A stretch of 64,000 bases of DNA, taken from contig DP000238.1 in the NCBI GenBank assembly GCA_000200715.1, positions 494,154 to 558,153 on the forward strand, in the 5' to 3' direction. This DNA comes from Cenarchaeum symbiosum A. Lineage in GTDB: Archaea; Thermoproteota; Nitrososphaeria; Nitrososphaerales; Nitrosopumilaceae. The position numbers and the translations under genes are program-made. The notes beneath the pieces are model-generated. The model saw nothing but the letters and a program-made list of their open reading frames with translations, was not told the DNA's origin and searched no databases. Positions 10,271 through 58,730 of this stretch are shown here, in pieces. Numbering within the stretch: the first letter of the stretch is position 1; every line of letters begins with the position of its first letter.

Positions 10271-10289
10271 AAATGTCTTGTGATATAAG

Positions 10290-10348
10290 GCTCTGTTACG
10301 TTGCGGGGGCATGGCCCAAAACGTGTCAAGAGCCGGGGACATGGGCGA
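10290..10348 (+). repeat. Terminal-type repeat Y, copy A
   Basis: A segment of about 58 bp beginning ctctgttacgttgcggg and containing gtgtcaagagccgggg. It matches, with scattered changes, the inverted repeats bounding the R-M unit at 49911-49970 (same strand) and 52124-52186 (opposite strand). Here it lies on the 3' side of the inverted methyltransferase copy, as expected if copy A derives from the same element. Confidence 0.75.
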
Positions 10349-10480
10349 TCTGGGGTCAAAAACTGTTAATCCGCGGGTACATTGGTGTTAACCGCGGTGA
10401 CATGGATACTACATGGAACAAAAACTAGTGAGGCTTTTACGTAGCCATGGATACTAGTGTACATGGCACCTATTTTGTAG
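10349..10480. repeat. Flank of the R-M unit, shared with 52017-52123 (inverted)
   Basis: Contains aaaaactgttaatccgcggg, catggaacaaaaactagtg and atactagtgtacatggcacc, all also present in reverse complement at 52017-52123. In copy A this flank joins the methyltransferase 3' end directly; in copy B about 950 bp holding the restriction enzyme gene lies between them. No gene is seen here. Confidence 0.75.
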
Positions 10481-10492
10481 AGGCGACATACT

Positions 10493-11143
10493 CTAGATTA
10501 GATTTTTGATCTTGTTTTTAAGCACGAGATCAAGGCCCCATGCAGACCAGCCGCGGTATTTTTCCCGGGCAAACAACTCTATTTTTTTCTGGAATGGAAA
10601 CATCCTTTCTATGCCCTGCATTGCTTGTACCGGTTTTCTGCTATGCTCCGACCGGGGTACCGTGATGAGCTGTCTTACATTCCTCGCGCCCCGGGGGGTG
10701 GGTATTTTTCCGTGTTTGAACAAAAGGCAGAGCTCACAGTTTGACAGGGTGTATTTTCCCGGATTATGATTCATCTTGTCCCATACAAACGCGACCGTGC
10801 GATATTCAAACCCCCAGGCCTTGCCCAGCTGAATAGCCTGTTCCAGATGCGGGCTTGTCGCCCACAGGAACAAGAGGCTGTTGCTGCTTGCAATTTTCTT
10901 AATCGGAATCTCCATCATTTTTTCAGTCTTCATCGTTGGATATTTGAAACTAGACGTACTAACGTAGAGATCCGTTTTGTCATACTGGAGCTTGCCGTTG
11001 TAATCCCAGGGCGGATCGGCATATATAATGTCAAATTTCCTATTTGGGAGCTTTTGATATAGAATTTCACGCGGTACCCTGTTTTGCTTTGTCCTGTTTC
11101 TGACGTCTTTTGAATAGACAGAATAGCTGCTCTGCCTGCTCAT
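10493..11143 (-). CDS. MT-A70/M.MunI-like adenine-N6 DNA methyltransferase, orphan copy A
   Basis: A 216-residue protein with the catalytic DPPW at residues 43-46 (IIYADPPWDYNG), the MT-A70 signature that M.MunI-type DNA m6A methyltransferases share with eukaryotic MT-A70/Ime4. A conserved LLFLWATSPHLEQA block and a C-terminal GWSAWGLD follow. It transfers a methyl group from S-adenosylmethionine to adenine; the target is probably the site of the partner restriction enzyme, predicted CAATTG. It differs from the copy at 50401-51051 at only about six residues. Copy A has no restriction gene beside it: the sequence just after its stop jumps to the flank that in copy B lies beyond the restriction gene. 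Its base composition is more AT-rich than its neighbours, suggesting import. It overlaps a small upstream frame by an ATGA. Confidence 0.9.
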   Translation of the reverse strand: MSRQSSYSVYSKDVRNRTKQNRVPREILYQKLPNRKFDIIYADPPWDYNGKLQYDKTDLYVSTSSFKYPTMKTEKMMEIPIKKIASSNSLLFLWATSPHLEQAIQLGKAWGFEYRTVAFVWDKMNHNPGKYTLSNCELCLLFKHGKIPTPRGARNVRQLITVPRSEHSRKPVQAMQGIERMFPFQKKIELFAREKYRGWSAWGLDLVLKNKIKNLI

Positions 11144-11319
11144 TTTCCGCCCCTCCCGTCACTTGAAGCGGCTCCGGCCTTGCGCCCCGTCAATTCGAAT
11201 ACAAGGCTTTCATGGAGTCTTGACGCCATAGCGGTTGGCTGCCGGATGATTTCCACAAGACCGCACCTTCCGTCAAAACCAACGGCTCCAAATTTCCTTT
11301 GAGCCTTCCCCCAGGCCAT
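11140..11319 (-). CDS. Small basic protein upstream of methyltransferase copy A
   Basis: A 59-residue frame (MAWGKAQRKFGAVGFDG...) from ATG 11319, ending in an ATGA overlap with the methyltransferase start and so probably translationally coupled. The same frame exists in copy B (50219-50404) with about nine substitutions and no frame break, although the DNA has diverged. An A/T-rich box (aaattttaaatg on the minus strand) lies about 26 nt upstream. Function unknown; a controller protein for the R-M unit is possible, but no helix-turn-helix is evident. Confidence 0.5.
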   Translation of the reverse strand: MAWGKAQRKFGAVGFDGRCGLVEIIRQPTAMASRLHESLVFELTGRKAGAASSDGRGGK

Positions 11320-11739
11320 TATCGCAGTATGTTATCATCATCATTTAAAATTTTTTTTATTGCCCTTGATTAAGGGACGGATGGCCCGGGGCATTGACGT
11401 CGGAGATCCCCGGATGGACCGGAATGTTTTATGCCCGGACACGTGCATTATATACGAGCCATGCCGGGGCACCGTGCAAGTGCCAGCCGATCCAAAAAAA
11501 ACCACCAGTCGGCCCCGCCCGCTGCATGTCCCCGCCCCCTAGGATTCTGTACGTCTGAGGTGCCCCGGCAGGGTATCTTCCCTCCCCGGCAGAAATCGAG
11601 CCCCGCACGCCTCTGCCAAGCAGCTCACCTGGCCCGCCGATCCCCTGACCCCCGGAACTTCTGTACATGCGCCTTGTGTCTGGCGCGTCCAATCCGGCGG
11701 GACTTGAAACTTATAAAACGGCAGCCACTACCCGCGGCC
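11320..11739. other. Intergenic: methyltransferase promoter side and pstS promoter
   Basis: 420 bp without a convincing gene. Bases 11320-11580 belong to the inverted repeat and include the A/T-rich promoter of the minus-strand unit. Bases 11581-11739 are unique and end with the pstS TATA box. Open frames here are short, Pro/Arg-rich and not conserved between the two repeat copies. Confidence 0.6.
11711..11718 (+). promoter_or_regulatory. TATA box of pstS
   Basis: ttataaaa centred about 26 nt before the ATG at 11740. This fixes the short start of pstS and implies a leaderless transcript. Confidence 0.6.
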
Positions 11740-48304: not shown

Positions 48305-48342
48305 GCCCCGGGCCCGCCTGTCATATATCTGACTCAAAAATA

Positions 48343-48350
48343 GTTATAAG
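48343..48350 (+). promoter_or_regulatory. TATA box of the first exported paralog
   Basis: gttataag centred about 26 nt before ATG 48372; an equivalent gttataaa (49126-49133) precedes ATG 49155. The two paralogs therefore share promoter form and leaderless starts. Confidence 0.55.
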
Positions 48351-48371
48351 TGGGTTATCAAGGGGGTGGCC

Positions 48372-49043
48372 ATGCTTACAAGACGATACGGAATAGCACT
48401 GACGGGCTTTGCCGCAGTATTTGCACTGCTGGCGATCACCCCTGCAAGTGCATCATTCCTGCCCGCAAGCCAGGCTGATACTCCTGTACTGTTCGGCATG
48501 GCGGAGCTTGTTCACAAGAATGTTGACGGCGAGGTTCTCTCATCACATACTGTCCACAACCAGCTGGTCGACTATGGGGAATCCATTCTCATAAAGGGCA
48601 CCTTTGGGGTTGATTCCGTTGGCACTACTTCGAACTTTGAAAGGTCGATGGTACTGTGTGTTACTGATGCTTTGACAGGGGCGGATATATCAGATACTAC
48701 CATCGCCGGGGACCTCACGCCTACCACCGCGGTTGATGACGGCGATCAGTCCTGCATAGACGCAACTGTACTACTCAACTCTGAACCGGGCTCGGCCGTA
48801 CTCAACACCGAACCCGGCTTGGCCGTACTCAACGCCACGTTCGACGGGGATGATGTAGTTGACGATGCGGTTATCACGGCTATAGCCGTCTGCAACACCC
48901 TCAATGAAGACTTCAACGACCGCGATGACTGCCAGGCTAGCGGAGGATTGTTCTCTGCTGTTGGCGTTGTTAACACTACGATAGGGGCAGATGACACGCT
49001 AGACATTACCTACACCTTTGATATTAGATCACCTATCAACTAG
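48372..49043 (+). CDS. Exported protein, tandem paralog 1
   Basis: 223 residues. Signal peptide MLTRRYGIALTGFAAVFALLAITPASASF, then a block almost identical to the next gene: PVLFGMAELVHKNVDGEVL, TVHNQLVDYGES. The rest is beta-rich, acidic and Asp/Thr-rich with four Cys likely paired (LCVTDA, SCIDA, VCNTLN, DDCQA). It ends DTLDITYTFDIRSPIN. It is probably an abundant secreted or surface subunit; no enzymatic motif. An internal near-repeat of about ten residues (LNSEPGSAV, LNTEPGLAV) occurs near residue 140. I recall similar exported proteins in other Thaumarchaeota, but cannot name a function. Confidence 0.75.
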   Translation: MLTRRYGIALTGFAAVFALLAITPASASFLPASQADTPVLFGMAELVHKNVDGEVLSSHTVHNQLVDYGESILIKGTFGVDSVGTTSNFERSMVLCVTDALTGADISDTTIAGDLTPTTAVDDGDQSCIDATVLLNSEPGSAVLNTEPGLAVLNATFDGDDVVDDAVITAIAVCNTLNEDFNDRDDCQASGGLFSAVGVVNTTIGADDTLDITYTFDIRSPIN

Positions 49044-49154
49044 TCAACACATCTGAATTTTTCGCTTTTTGAATGCAATGTATGCTCTGCGCCTGTCCAC
49101 ATGCGGGTGAGAACCGATAAAAATCGTTATAAACGGGCTATGCGCGGGAAAAGC

Positions 49155-49799
49155 ATGGTAAAACCAACAGTCGGAATTGCACTGACAGGGTTTGCCGCAG
49201 TGTTTGCACTGCTGGCGCTGACCCCCGCAAGTGCCTCATTCTTTCCGGCAGACCAGGCTGACAGTCCCGTGCTATTCGGCATGGCGGAGCTTGTACACAA
49301 GAACGTAGACGGCGAGGTTCTCTCATCACAGACGGTCCACAACCAGCTGCTCGATAGCGGCGAGAGCATACTAATCCGTGGAGCCTTTGGTCCTACTAAT
49401 CTGGATGAAAGTGACCAGCCCGCGGCAATATGCATCGGAGACGCGGAGGCAACAGACGTAACCGAGGATGCCGTAGCAGCCGACTTTGTGCCCGCTCTTG
49501 CATTTGCTGACTCGGGTGAAAGTACCTGCATACTGACGAACAACGTTGATAGCACCGACACCACCACCGACACAAGCCAGGCGGTCCTGCGTGCCAATTT
49601 TACAGATGCCAACATCGCAGCAGGTGAGACGATCACGTCACTTGTAATCTGCACTAACTCCCTTGACAACAGCAATGACAACTGCAGCACCCTGGGCGAA
49701 GCATTTGCGGTGGTCATAGTGCCCCAGCCCACTCTGGTAAATGCGGACGACATGGTGGAAGTAACGTACACCTTTGACCTCACATCTACCAACACCTAG
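49155..49799 (+). CDS. Exported protein, tandem paralog 2
   Basis: 214 residues from ATG 49155 (MVKPTVGIALTGFAAVFAL), fixed by the gttataaa box 26 nt upstream; in-frame starts at 49101 and 49140 are less likely. Signal peptide and first 60 mature residues match paralog 1 (SPVLFGMAELVHKNVDGEVL). The C-terminal half diverges but keeps Cys positions and the closing 'VEVTYTFDLTS'. The pair probably arose by tandem duplication and may build a surface layer, filament or matrix. It directly borders the restriction-modification element. Confidence 0.75.
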   Translation: MVKPTVGIALTGFAAVFALLALTPASASFFPADQADSPVLFGMAELVHKNVDGEVLSSQTVHNQLLDSGESILIRGAFGPTNLDESDQPAAICIGDAEATDVTEDAVAADFVPALAFADSGESTCILTNNVDSTDTTTDTSQAVLRANFTDANIAAGETITSLVICTNSLDNSNDNCSTLGEAFAVVIVPQPTLVNADDMVEVTYTFDLTSTNT

Positions 49800-50218
49800 T
49801 CCGGCAACCTGATTTTTCACTTTTTTGATAGAATACTATCCGTGCCGACTGCGCGTTTTTTTTCACACTAGTACCATGTGTGGCATACGCCGGGGCCCGT
49901 GCCGCCCGGCGGCCCTGTTAAGTTGCGGGTACATGGCTCAAAAAGTGTTAAGAGCCGGGTGCATGAGGGATACCCTGCTAGGGCACCTCGGGCGCACAGG
50001 ATCCCGGGGGCAGGGGCATGCAGCGGGCGGGGCCGACTGGTGGTTTTTTTTGATCGGCTGGCACTTGCACGGGGCCCCGGCATGACTCGTATCTAACACA
50101 CGTGTCCTGACATAAAACATTCCGGGCCATCCGGGGATCTCCGACGCCAATGCCCTGGGCCATCCGTCCCTTAATCAAGGGCAATGAAAAAAATTTTAAA
50201 TGACGATGATATCATACT
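49800..50218. other. Intergenic: left terminal repeat and promoter of the R-M element
   Basis: 419 bp without a gene. It holds the candidate target duplication (49902-49909), the left inverted repeat (49911-49970), about 250 bp matching 11320-11580 in inverted orientation, and the A/T-rich promoter aaattttaaatg about 26 nt before the ATG at 50219. Confidence 0.7.
49911..49970 (+). repeat. Left terminal inverted repeat of the R-M element
   Basis: Reads ggccctgttaagttgcgggt, then caaaaagtgttaagagccgg. It aligns over about 58 bp with the reverse complement of 52124-52186 and with 10290-10348. Confidence 0.7.
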
Positions 50219-50404
50219 ATGATAATGGCATGGGGGAAGGCTCAAAGGAAATTTGGAGGCGTTGGTTTTGACGGAAGGCGCGGTCATGTGGAAGTCATCC
50301 GGCAGCCGACCGCTATGGCGTCAAAACTCCATGAAAGCCTTGTATTCGAATTGATGGGCCGCAAGGCCGGTGCCGTTTCAAGTGACGGGAGGGGCGGAAA
50401 ATGA
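50219..50404 (+). CDS. Small basic protein upstream of methyltransferase copy B
   Basis: 61 residues (MIMAWGKAQRKFGGVGFDGR...), ending in an ATGA overlap with the methyltransferase start. An A/T box lies about 26 nt upstream of the first ATG. The frame is kept open in copy A at 11140-11319 with amino-acid changes, suggesting it is translated. Function unknown; candidate regulator of the R-M genes or a leader peptide coupling their translation. Confidence 0.5.
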   Translation: MIMAWGKAQRKFGGVGFDGRRGHVEVIRQPTAMASKLHESLVFELMGRKAGAVSSDGRGGK

Positions 50405-51051
50405 GCAGGCAGAGCAGCTATTCTGTATATTCAAAAGACGTCAGAAACAGGACAAAGCAAAACAAGATACCGCAGGAAATTCTATATCAAAAGCTCCCAA
50501 ATAGGAAATTTGATATTATATATGCCGATCCGCCCTGGGATTACAACGGCAAACTCCAGTATGACAAAACGGATCTCTACGTTAGTACGTCTAGTTTCAA
50601 ATATCCAACGATGAAGACTAAAAAAATGATGGAAATTCCGATCAAAAAAATTGCAAGCAGCAACAGCCTCTTGTTCCTGTGGGCGACAAGCCCACATCTG
50701 GAACAGGCTATTCAGCTGGGCAAGGCCTGGGGGTTTGAATATCGCACGGTTGCATTTGTATGGGACAAGATGAATCACAATCCGGGAAAATACACCCTGT
50801 CAAACTGTGAGCTCTGCCTTTTGTTCAAACACGGAAAAATACCTACCCCCCGGGGCGCGAGGAACGTAAGACAGCTCATCACGATACCCCGGACGGAGCA
50901 TAGCAGAAAACCGGTACAAGCAATGCAGGGCATAGAAAGGATGTTTCCATTCCAGAAAAAAATAGAGTTGTTTGCCCGGGAAAAATACCGCGGCTGGTCT
51001 GCCTGGGGCCTTGATCTCGTGCTTAAAAACAAGATCAAAAACCTAATCTAG
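50401..51051 (+). CDS. MT-A70/M.MunI-like adenine-N6 DNA methyltransferase, copy B
   Basis: 216 residues with catalytic DPPW at 43-46 and the MT-A70 blocks LLFLWATSPHLEQA and GWSAWGLD. It protects host DNA by methylating the adenine within the site cut by the adjacent restriction enzyme. Its last bases overlap the convergent restriction gene by nine bases, so the R and M genes are tail to tail. It differs from copy A at about six residues, so duplication or conversion is recent. Base composition is more AT-rich than the chromosome around it. Confidence 0.92.
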   Translation: MSRQSSYSVYSKDVRNRTKQNKIPQEILYQKLPNRKFDIIYADPPWDYNGKLQYDKTDLYVSTSSFKYPTMKTKKMMEIPIKKIASSNSLLFLWATSPHLEQAIQLGKAWGFEYRTVAFVWDKMNHNPGKYTLSNCELCLLFKHGKIPTPRGARNVRQLITIPRTEHSRKPVQAMQGIERMFPFQKKIELFAREKYRGWSAWGLDLVLKNKIKNLI

Positions 51052-51591
51052 AATATGTCTTAGATTCTTTTTAAAATGATTTATCAGTGGTGTGGAACTG
51101 GAACTTTTCCACAAGAAGAAATGTGCTCCATATTCATCGAACCAATATGTTATTTCTCTTGTTCTTTTTGCATCTCTGGTTATTCTACCTTGGTATACGA
51201 TCCAAAAAGGCAGGGTGCCAACAGGCAGGTTTGAAAGTTTGCACATTACTTTGAGCAGGCCGGGAGTAAAAAACTTACATGATCTTTCATGAGCATTGCC
51301 CCTGCCATCCTTGGGCAGTGTTTCTCCCGGCACGTATCCCTCCTGACTTTTTATTTCAACATACAACGTTTTCTTGGTTTTTTTGTTTGTTATCGCATAA
51401 TCAATAGATACGCCATGTTTTGGATTTTTTGAATAAATGTCTTTAAGCTCTTTGGGTTCTTTTCTTATCACATATTCTGTACCTGTGAATTCAGCTAGAA
51501 AAACCGCCTCAAATTCATCTTCCGCCTTTTTACCCATTAGGCCGCTTTTCTTTTGCCATACGTCGCGATCTCGAAGCTCCTTCTTACCCAT
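51043..51591 (-). CDS. MunI/EcoRI-like type II restriction endonuclease, predicted to cut CAATTG
   Basis: 182 residues. The PD-(D/E)XK centre is visible: Asp64 (VSIDYAI), then Glu79 and Lys81 (YVEIKSQ); the spacing matches MunI as I recall it (D83, E98, K100). GRGNAHERSCKFFTPGLLK at 97-115 contains the GNAxER element that MunI and EcoRI share for contacting AATT, and its other residues closely follow MunI. LPFWIVYQGRITRDAKRTREITYWFD further supports a MunI relationship. It would be lethal without the methyltransferase encoded opposite. It is present only in copy B. The gene is AT-rich, and TATA-like sequence in tatattagtaaaca lies upstream (about 51600). Confidence 0.88.
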   Translation of the reverse strand: MGKKELRDRDVWQKKSGLMGKKAEDEFEAVFLAEFTGTEYVIRKEPKELKDIYSKNPKHGVSIDYAITNKKTKKTLYVEIKSQEGYVPGETLPKDGRGNAHERSCKFFTPGLLKVMCKLSNLPVGTLPFWIVYQGRITRDAKRTREITYWFDEYGAHFFLWKSSSSTPLINHFKKNLRHILD

Positions 51592-52227
51592 CTATTAACA
51601 AACACCGACATATACTAATAAACACTCTTCTGATTTGCCGAGAATCTATCTCGATGTAGGGGTTTGCCTGAGTTGGAGAATGTTTGTCTTTCAGGCACAT
51701 CCTTTCTATTGGAGACCTTGATACATGAACCCAAACTCATATTTCAGTCTACGCAAGACACGTCCTGCGCGCGAGTTCTATCCTAGTCATTTTCTTTTAC
51801 ACCCGAGACTGGACTCTTGTCTCTGTGGTAGTCCTGAAGTCGGATGTGTGTCATCCTTGTGTTTTCACCGGAAAAGTGCCCCCAAGAAATGCTCTAAAGC
51901 CGGCCTTCTGACCCGAGATGTTCTCCCAAATTTGACCCTTCTGGGCCAAGCTATCAGCCGGACAGCGCAAATCTCCCAAATTTTGACTCCTACGGAGGCG
52001 TCTGCATGGAGGCTGTACAAAATAGGTGCCATGTACACTAGTATCCATAGCTGCGTAAAAGTATCACTAGTTTTTGTTCCATGCAGTATCCATGTCCCTG
52101 CGGATTAACAGTTTTTGGCCCCAGATCGTTCATGTCCCCGGCTCTTGACACTTTTTGTGTCACGTGCCCGCAACTTAACAGAGCCCGCCCGGTGTGCACT
52201 TTTATCGGCGCCCGCATCATACACCGC
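51592..52227. other. Intergenic: restriction-gene promoter, shared flank and right terminal repeat
   Basis: 636 bp. No convincing gene from 51592 to 52016; the open frames there are short and lack a signal or recognisable motif. Two near-copies of ctcccaaattttgac (about 51933 and 51977) form a short direct repeat. From 52017 the sequence matches 10349-10480 in reverse complement. The right terminal repeat and the udg TATA box (cttttatc, 52199-52206) complete the stretch. Confidence 0.6.
52124..52186 (-). repeat. Right terminal inverted repeat of the R-M element
   Basis: Reverse complement reads ctctgttaagttgcgggcac, then acaaaaagtgtcaagagccg. It lies just before the udg promoter, which begins at about 52199. 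Confidence 0.7.
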
Positions 52228-55400: not shown

Positions 55401-55475
55401 ATTACTAGATCTGAACGAAATACTGCCGATTCGGGGTTGGAGATAAGAAAGATGATAGAAAAAGAACGAAGTTAG
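55401..55475 (+). pseudogene. 3' remnant of a gene related to 58536-58730
   Basis: A 24-codon open stretch ending SGLEIRKMIEKERS-stop aligns with the C-terminus SGIELRRMMEKE of the small minus-strand frame at 58536-58730. The DNA after both stops also matches for about 60 bp. The 5' part is missing or replaced by the ABC ATPase promoter region, so this is probably a decayed copy. Confidence 0.45.
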
Positions 55476-55840
55476 TAACAAACTATTGAAAATATCGCAG
55501 AAGAGGGGACACTTTCATAGAAAGACTACGTAATACGGGTATATTGGATTTTTGTTCTAGCATTTTGGGCCTATAGTGCAAAAACCGTGCCTGCCTCCAC
55601 GGAAGCATGCCTAAGCGGATTTTTGACGCCTCTAGGGACGGGCTGGTACCTTGCCGATGCCGGGATCATGCATCTCGTACGCAGGCTCCGGAAGGGCCGT
55701 CCTGTATCGGAGGCGGCAAGGTGGTTTAAATCTCATAGGTGGAAACTGCCGCCGGTGAATCCTGCCATTACAGCACACGTGCCTACAGTCCAGAACCCCA
55801 GGACCGGCCAGTGGCACATGGATGGGCCCTGGGCTCCGGC
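55403..55840. other. Intergenic with gene remnant and dispersed repeat
   Basis: 438 bp. It carries the remnant above, its conserved 3' flank, and downstream an 85-codon frame (GTG 55587 to TGA 55844) that overlaps the next ATG as ATGA but resembles no protein I know. A gtttaaat box at about 55722-55730 places transcription start near 55753, so at most the last 29 codons of that frame would be expressed as a coupled leader. Confidence 0.4.
55450..55535 (+). repeat. Dispersed repeat copy 1 (inverted partner at 58465-58560)
   Basis: Shares ctattgaaaatatcgc, gaggggaca, tttcata and a downstream gtatatt, in order, with the reverse complement of 58465-58560. Inside is a hairpin-like pair tgaaaat/attttca in copy 2. 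It follows the homologous gene ends, so it may be a conserved 3' untranslated or terminator segment. Confidence 0.55.
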
Positions 55841-58275: not shown

Positions 58276-58464
58276 AATGGCCGTTTTGCCTCTAGGGAAT
58301 TTATGGCGTTTGATTTGCGGCCCTTCCACTCTGGGGGCGGATTGTCTGCGCAACTTTGACAAGGGGCGGGTCCGTGCAGCGGCATCCGGACTGTGGAGAG
58401 GCTGCCGTGGATGCATGACGGGGTGCCCTGCATCTGGCAGGGCTCTGAAACAGGAGTTTAATAT

Positions 58465-58560
58465 ACTTGGACTGGGTAGGCTATGTATGAAAATGTCCCC
58501 TCACTGGCGATATTTTCAATAGACGGCTAGTAACGTTATTCTTTTTCCATCATCCTTCTC
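58465..58560 (-). repeat. Dispersed repeat copy 2
   Basis: Inverted partner of 55450-55535. It covers the stop of the small hypothetical gene and about 60 bp after it, with the hairpin arms tgaaaat and attttca about 17 bp apart. Confidence 0.55.
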
Positions 58561-58730
58561 AACTCGATTCCCGAATAAGTGTGGATTTCACTCATGTCAC
58601 GCAGCGCCTCCCCAATTCTTTTTGACACACCGCCGGCATAGACAAACACGTCGCCGTCACGTACGATCGCCGGATCCTCGGCCCTGCTGTAAAATTTCAG
58701 GCAGCCTCCTTTTTCAAAGGCATAGCGCAT
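58536..58730 (-). CDS. Small hypothetical protein, possibly 5'-truncated
   Basis: 64 residues from ATG 58730: FEKGGCLKFYSRAEDPAIVRDG, then VFVYAGGVSKRIGEAL and a charged tail. The same frame stays open and protein-like for about 37 codons upstream, overlapping the end of the preceding gene but with no usual start codon, so the gene may have lost its 5' end. A C-terminal relative survives at 55401-55475. Function unknown. Confidence 0.4.
   Translation of the reverse strand: MRYAFEKGGCLKFYSRAEDPAIVRDGDVFVYAGGVSKRIGEALRDMSEIHTYSGIELRRMMEKE

Follow-up and report, generated by a model that had tools for sequence, protein, structure and literature searches.

A MunI-like restriction-modification unit in Cenarchaeum symbiosum A, probably a non-autonomous insertion cassette with the ends of a local MITE family

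A complete type II restriction-modification (R-M) system in the sponge-dwelling archaeon Cenarchaeum symbiosum A is probably the cargo of a non-autonomous element that resembles a mobile insertion cassette (MIC) and has the ends of a local MITE family, both terms being used here as in ISsaga (PMC3129680). The unit lies within the window (the whole 64,000-nt stretch of DNA that was analysed, positions 494154-558153 of a genome of 2,045,086 bp in a single contig) and combines inverted ends shared with a transposable element family, passenger genes, the lack of a transposase and a flanking duplication that agrees at 8/8 positions, or 7/8 if the ends are drawn symmetrically. Physical entry of R-M systems into genomes is seldom caught, though their wide spread is known. 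Here an archaeal lineage has kept the ends, the footprint and the sibling elements alike, apparently without a surviving helper, and it becomes possible to test directly whether non-autonomous ends captured a defence system. In window coordinates the unit consists of:

49902-49909, plus strand: left target-site duplication CCGCCCGG, identical to 52185-52192, with the geometry of the CATAAAAG duplication of a 3.2-kb composite elsewhere in the genome
49910-49971, plus strand: left terminal inverted repeat, with two iteron-like modules TGTYAAnnnnCGGGnACATG, 84% complementary to the right arm
49969-50035, plus strand: segment like the 3' end of a host gene and its downstream sequence, matching genome 669077-669127 (87% over 51 bp, E=4e-9)
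50225-50404, plus strand: small ORF of 59 aa whose TGA overlaps the ATG of the next gene (ATGA), open in both copies of the unit
50401-51051, plus strand: adenine-N6 DNA methyltransferase (MTase), MT-A70 / M.MunI-like, 216 aa (Pfam MT-A70 4e-24; PADLOC MTase_II 2e-61)
51043-51591, minus strand: MunI-like type II restriction endonuclease (REase), 182 aa (Pfam RestrictionMunI, PF11407, 1e-41; PDB 1d02 1e-45)
52006-52124, minus strand: right subterminal region with one more iteron-like module, in common with copy 2 (80% over 201 bp)
52125-52184, minus strand: right terminal inverted repeat, complementary to the left arm
52185-52192, plus strand: right target-site duplication CCGCCCGG, an 8/8 match with the left copy

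A transposon-like structure of inverted repeats and an 8-bp direct repeat, with no transposase, was the core of the original prediction, and its coordinates proved exact. The inverted repeats around the R-M pair are approximately 56-61 bp long and, taken as arms of 61 nt (49911-49971 and 52125-52185), show the same 84% complementarity with a BLAST E value of 5.5e-11, while ORF and Pfam analysis found no transposase ORF inside the unit. The perfect 8-mer requires the left end to extend by 2 nt, and the asymmetry of 2 nt that this leaves between the ends counts against the MIC reading; drawn symmetrically from the motif GGCYCTG, the flanking 8-mers agree at 7/8 positions. Flanks were compared for every candidate pair of ends (about nine pairings), and the chance of a perfect 8-bp match is P=0.0014 for any offset within +-3 at two random positions and 5e-5 at a fixed offset. 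A uracil-DNA glycosylase gene lies downstream of the unit, its probable start being 43 bp away. The window as a whole has a G+C content of 58.6%; the value is 63-64% at 49901-50100 and falls to 32-45% across most of the MTase-REase region. Similarity to the 3' end of the host gene at 669.1 kb is present in the left interior of both copies and suggests that assembly of the unit took place within the lineage. Just left of the unit, at window 48336-49390, there is a tandem pair of paralogues whose starts resemble signal peptides (77% over 272 nt).

Both R-M reading frames are intact and run convergently with a tail-to-tail overlap of 9 bp, and their early identification as a methyltransferase with a convergent MunI-like endonuclease is borne out by the matches to Pfam MT-A70, RestrictionMunI and 1d02. 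The system shares with MunI (PDB 1d02) the REase family and a convergent MT-A70-type MTase, but near-invariant residues around the active site are altered. REase residues D64, E79 and K81 align with the MunI catalytic residues and are invariant in the alignment with relatives, whereas I63, S82, E84 and Y86 differ from the residues common to about 96% of relatives, and thus activity and specificity are not assured. The target of the pair is assumed to be CAATTG, a putative assignment taken from the MunI family. The 59-aa ORF appears to be under weak constraint between the copies (dN 0.054, dS 0.103) and had no match in PHROGs.

The same ends bound at least six MITE-like elements of approximately 150 bp elsewhere in the genome, without R-M genes. 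This family was found by whole-genome searches in which the end sequence and one sibling element served as queries, and adds MITEs to a genome described as IS-free. Paired ends 143-151 bp apart define the elements A, B, C, D2, E1 and E2, and the family is distributed as follows:

genome 609.8-613.0 kb: MITEs A, B and C, with ends at both sides
genome 609769-612982 (3,214 bp): composite A-C, bounded by the left end of A and the right end of C, with CATAAAAG on both sides (8/8)
genome 754.9 kb: MITE E2, with ends at both sides
genome 907.2 kb: MITE E1, with ends at both sides
genome 1427.8 kb: solo end D1, with no partner end within 19 kb
genome 1428.6 kb: MITE D2, with ends at both sides
genome 1702.1 kb: half copy of the MITE

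An initial count of three such repeats is therefore right for the window and too low for the whole genome. Each end contains two to four modules resembling TGTYAAnnnGCGGGGACATG, a recurrence that would be expected of putative transposase-binding sites. Other cargo between these ends, which the original prediction proposed to look for, is present in composite A-C, whose outer ends are inverted and 96% identical and whose CATAAAAG duplication has the same offset as that of the R-M unit, a symmetric drawing again giving 7/8. Its cargo comprises a gene resembling pyridoxamine oxidases, a small ORF with RIO-like similarity below the Pfam cut-off, and an ORF of 492 aa that has no Pfam match and weakly resembles portal proteins. 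The end of the composite lies 41 bp beyond the stop of a type III-like R-M system, a pair at genome 613024-617992 encoding a 768-aa Mod and an 891-aa BPTD_3080-family endonuclease.

An alternative is that two solo ends or MITEs inserted separately around an older R-M locus, in which case the unit never moved whole and the 8-bp match is a coincidence. Single MITEs and solo ends do exist (D1, F), MITEs A, B and C form a cluster at 609-613 kb, and the ends of the R-M unit are not continued by the MITE core. We nevertheless judge separate insertion very unlikely, as two independent composites have perfect 8-mers with an identical offset (the fixed-offset chance is given above) and the lack of the REase in 200 relatives leaves no old R-M locus in sight. 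The flank comparison found no duplications at the individual MITEs, which counts against the MIC reading and indicates that the activity of the family is old or that the MITEs have been rearranged.

The original prediction had left open whether the unit was moved in trans or, as a selfish R-M unit, owed its mobility to cutting by its own enzyme. The presence of the ends on MITEs free of R-M genes, together with a second composite whose perfect 8-bp flanking duplication is placed in the same way, argues for transposition in trans. It is documented that R-M systems promote rearrangement as well as movement linked to IS elements (PMC3031569), and the catalytic residues of the REase are conserved, but mobilisation by endonuclease cutting or restriction-linked recombination is extremely improbable here: these ends move or have moved without R-M genes, the footprint is transposase-like and an 8-bp duplication is not expected from a CAATTG cutter. 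Cleavage by MunI leaves a 4-nt overhang. Furthermore, CAATTG occurs neither inside the unit nor at its junctions, and it is not depleted in the genome (62 occurrences vs 56 for the reversed control word).

A second copy of the sequence had also been noted within the window and is indeed present, with its MTase half 95% identical to that of the unit; it does not amount to a duplication of an intact element, as it retains one end only and the REase region is deleted. This partial copy 2 (10289-11577, minus strand) consists of:

10289-10344, minus strand: right-type terminal repeat, the partner on the other side being absent
10493-11143, minus strand: intact MTase, 210/216 aa identical to that of the unit, with the REase missing
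11144-11577, minus strand: MTase upstream region and left interior, the left terminal repeat being absent

The partner GATATAAG of a target duplication for copy 2 was not found in the window, and the lack of both a left end and a duplication counts against the MIC reading. The two MTases differ with dN 0.013 and dS 0.119, from which it follows that at least one, and probably both, have been kept under selection. Comparison of the copies bears in addition on whether the unit is a decayed autonomous transposon that once held a transposase gene, for example at 51.6-52.0 kb, and lost it. About 400 bp to the right of the REase contain no recognised protein and still more sequence is gone from copy 2; on the other hand, a transposase remnant was noticed in neither copy, the two have no extra common sequence that could be one, and we regard such decay as unlikely. 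A quite unlikely elaboration of the MIC reading is that the R-M cargo sustains a helper-less cassette in the stead of a transposase, since R-M loss is punished, with the spare MTase of copy 2 a by-product that relaxes this hold.

In order to look for a transposase associated with these ends we searched for three families, PF12762 (IS1595), PF01610 (ISL3) and PF00665 (rve). Neither IS1595 nor ISL3 transposases were detected in the genome or in its congener G001, although the positive controls matched. The sole rve match in the genome is a decayed-looking IS481-like integrase-core protein (L068 1069-2028, genome ~1324949), below the Pfam cut-off and without these ends. The suggestion that a transposase with the same ends might be present elsewhere in the genome was thus not upheld for the families searched, and this counts against the MIC reading. 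An IS21-like element (IstA/IstB with the same ends) was likewise considered and rejected, the only rve protein in the genome being IS481-like and lacking these ends. Congener G001 has 24 rve matches, those examined being IS481-like; these elements were rejected as a source of the ends, their own ends being unrelated. Krupovic et al. 2019 counted zero IS-like transposons in Cenarchaeum symbiosum A (PMC6563490); an enrichment of transposases is described in two further papers (PMC7848895, PMC6790972).

Under the MIC interpretation, horizontally acquired R-M genes would have been trapped, along with a small piece of host DNA, between two ends of the resident family. A DDE-type transposase supplied in trans, from a gene that the lineage formerly had or from a mobile element that has disappeared, may then have bound the iteron-like modules of the two inverted ends and excised or copied everything lying between the outermost pair. 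Insertion with an 8-bp staggered cut would have placed the unit 43 bp upstream of the probable uracil-DNA glycosylase start, and once in place the R-M pair would presumably act as an ordinary restriction system, addiction-like in disfavouring its own loss.

The unit resembles known MICs and MITEs in its IS-like ends, lack of a transposase, passenger genes, target-site duplication and related short MITEs in the genome. It differs from them in that no cognate IS was found among the families searched, the ends are not assigned to an IS family, the passenger genes form a complete type II R-M system, and the host is an archaeon reported to be IS-free (PMC6563490). R-M-bearing MICs seem, tentatively, to be little described in the literature. 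The R-M genes of PluTI (Khan 2010) are reportedly bounded by short IS-derived direct repeats, and in Rhizobium leguminosarum VF39SM an R-M unit is flanked by IS copies (Rochepeau 1997). Both cases share with ours R-M genes between repeats related to insertion sequences, but they are bacterial and not bounded by MITE-family ends. The two studies are cited in a paper on IS-linked movement of the PaeR7I R-M system, with 8-10 bp duplications associated with IS1 (PMC3031569). There too R-M genes travel with transposable-element machinery; in contrast, the IS elements of PaeR7I are complete and provide the transposase. Terminal repeats of multiple modules are known from the IS21 family and from Tn7/Mu ends (PMC10122671), a likeness of layout only, as the terminal bases and 8-bp duplication found here were matched to no member.

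The family appears to be local. The REase was absent from the other 200 of 201 genomes searched, the end 25-mer (<= 3 mismatches) from the other 399 of 400 and the MITE from the other 329 of 330. Searches of IMG/VR and plasmids with the ends returned nothing or chance matches only, and the REase was not found in plasmids. The sole congener (G001) keeps only the right, glycosylase-side flank, the left flank not being syntenic, and thus offers no empty site, which counts against the MIC reading. MunI-type relatives were detected in 28 bacterial or archaeal metagenome-assembled loci, nearly all with the convergent layout, and their scatter over distant bacteria and archaea indicates horizontal mobility of the cargo, in contrast to the local ends. 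Three relatives were found in viral contigs. A MunI-like REase lies at 4001-4579 of a very large viral contig from IMG/VR (L076, 202,882 bp). Long inverted repeats surround other MunI-type units at 2/24 loci (L038 and L042), in both cases beside tRNA genes and, for L042, near a contig end; their sequence differs from the ends described here and they are probably unrelated to this family or an assembly artefact. At L038, from an Elusimicrobia MAG, the repeats (5480-5681 / 7600-7880) enclose a MunI-type R-M unit with an HTH, C-protein-like ORF. Other repeats were observed as well. A motif, AATCTCCCAAATT(TT)G, recurs in and near the elements (window 51920-52000, L012 ~765 and L009 ~1047) and may represent a second small repeat family, and an inverted repeat of 128 nt, 73% complementary, lies at window 55429-55556 and 58449-58576, with its arms 2.9 kb apart.
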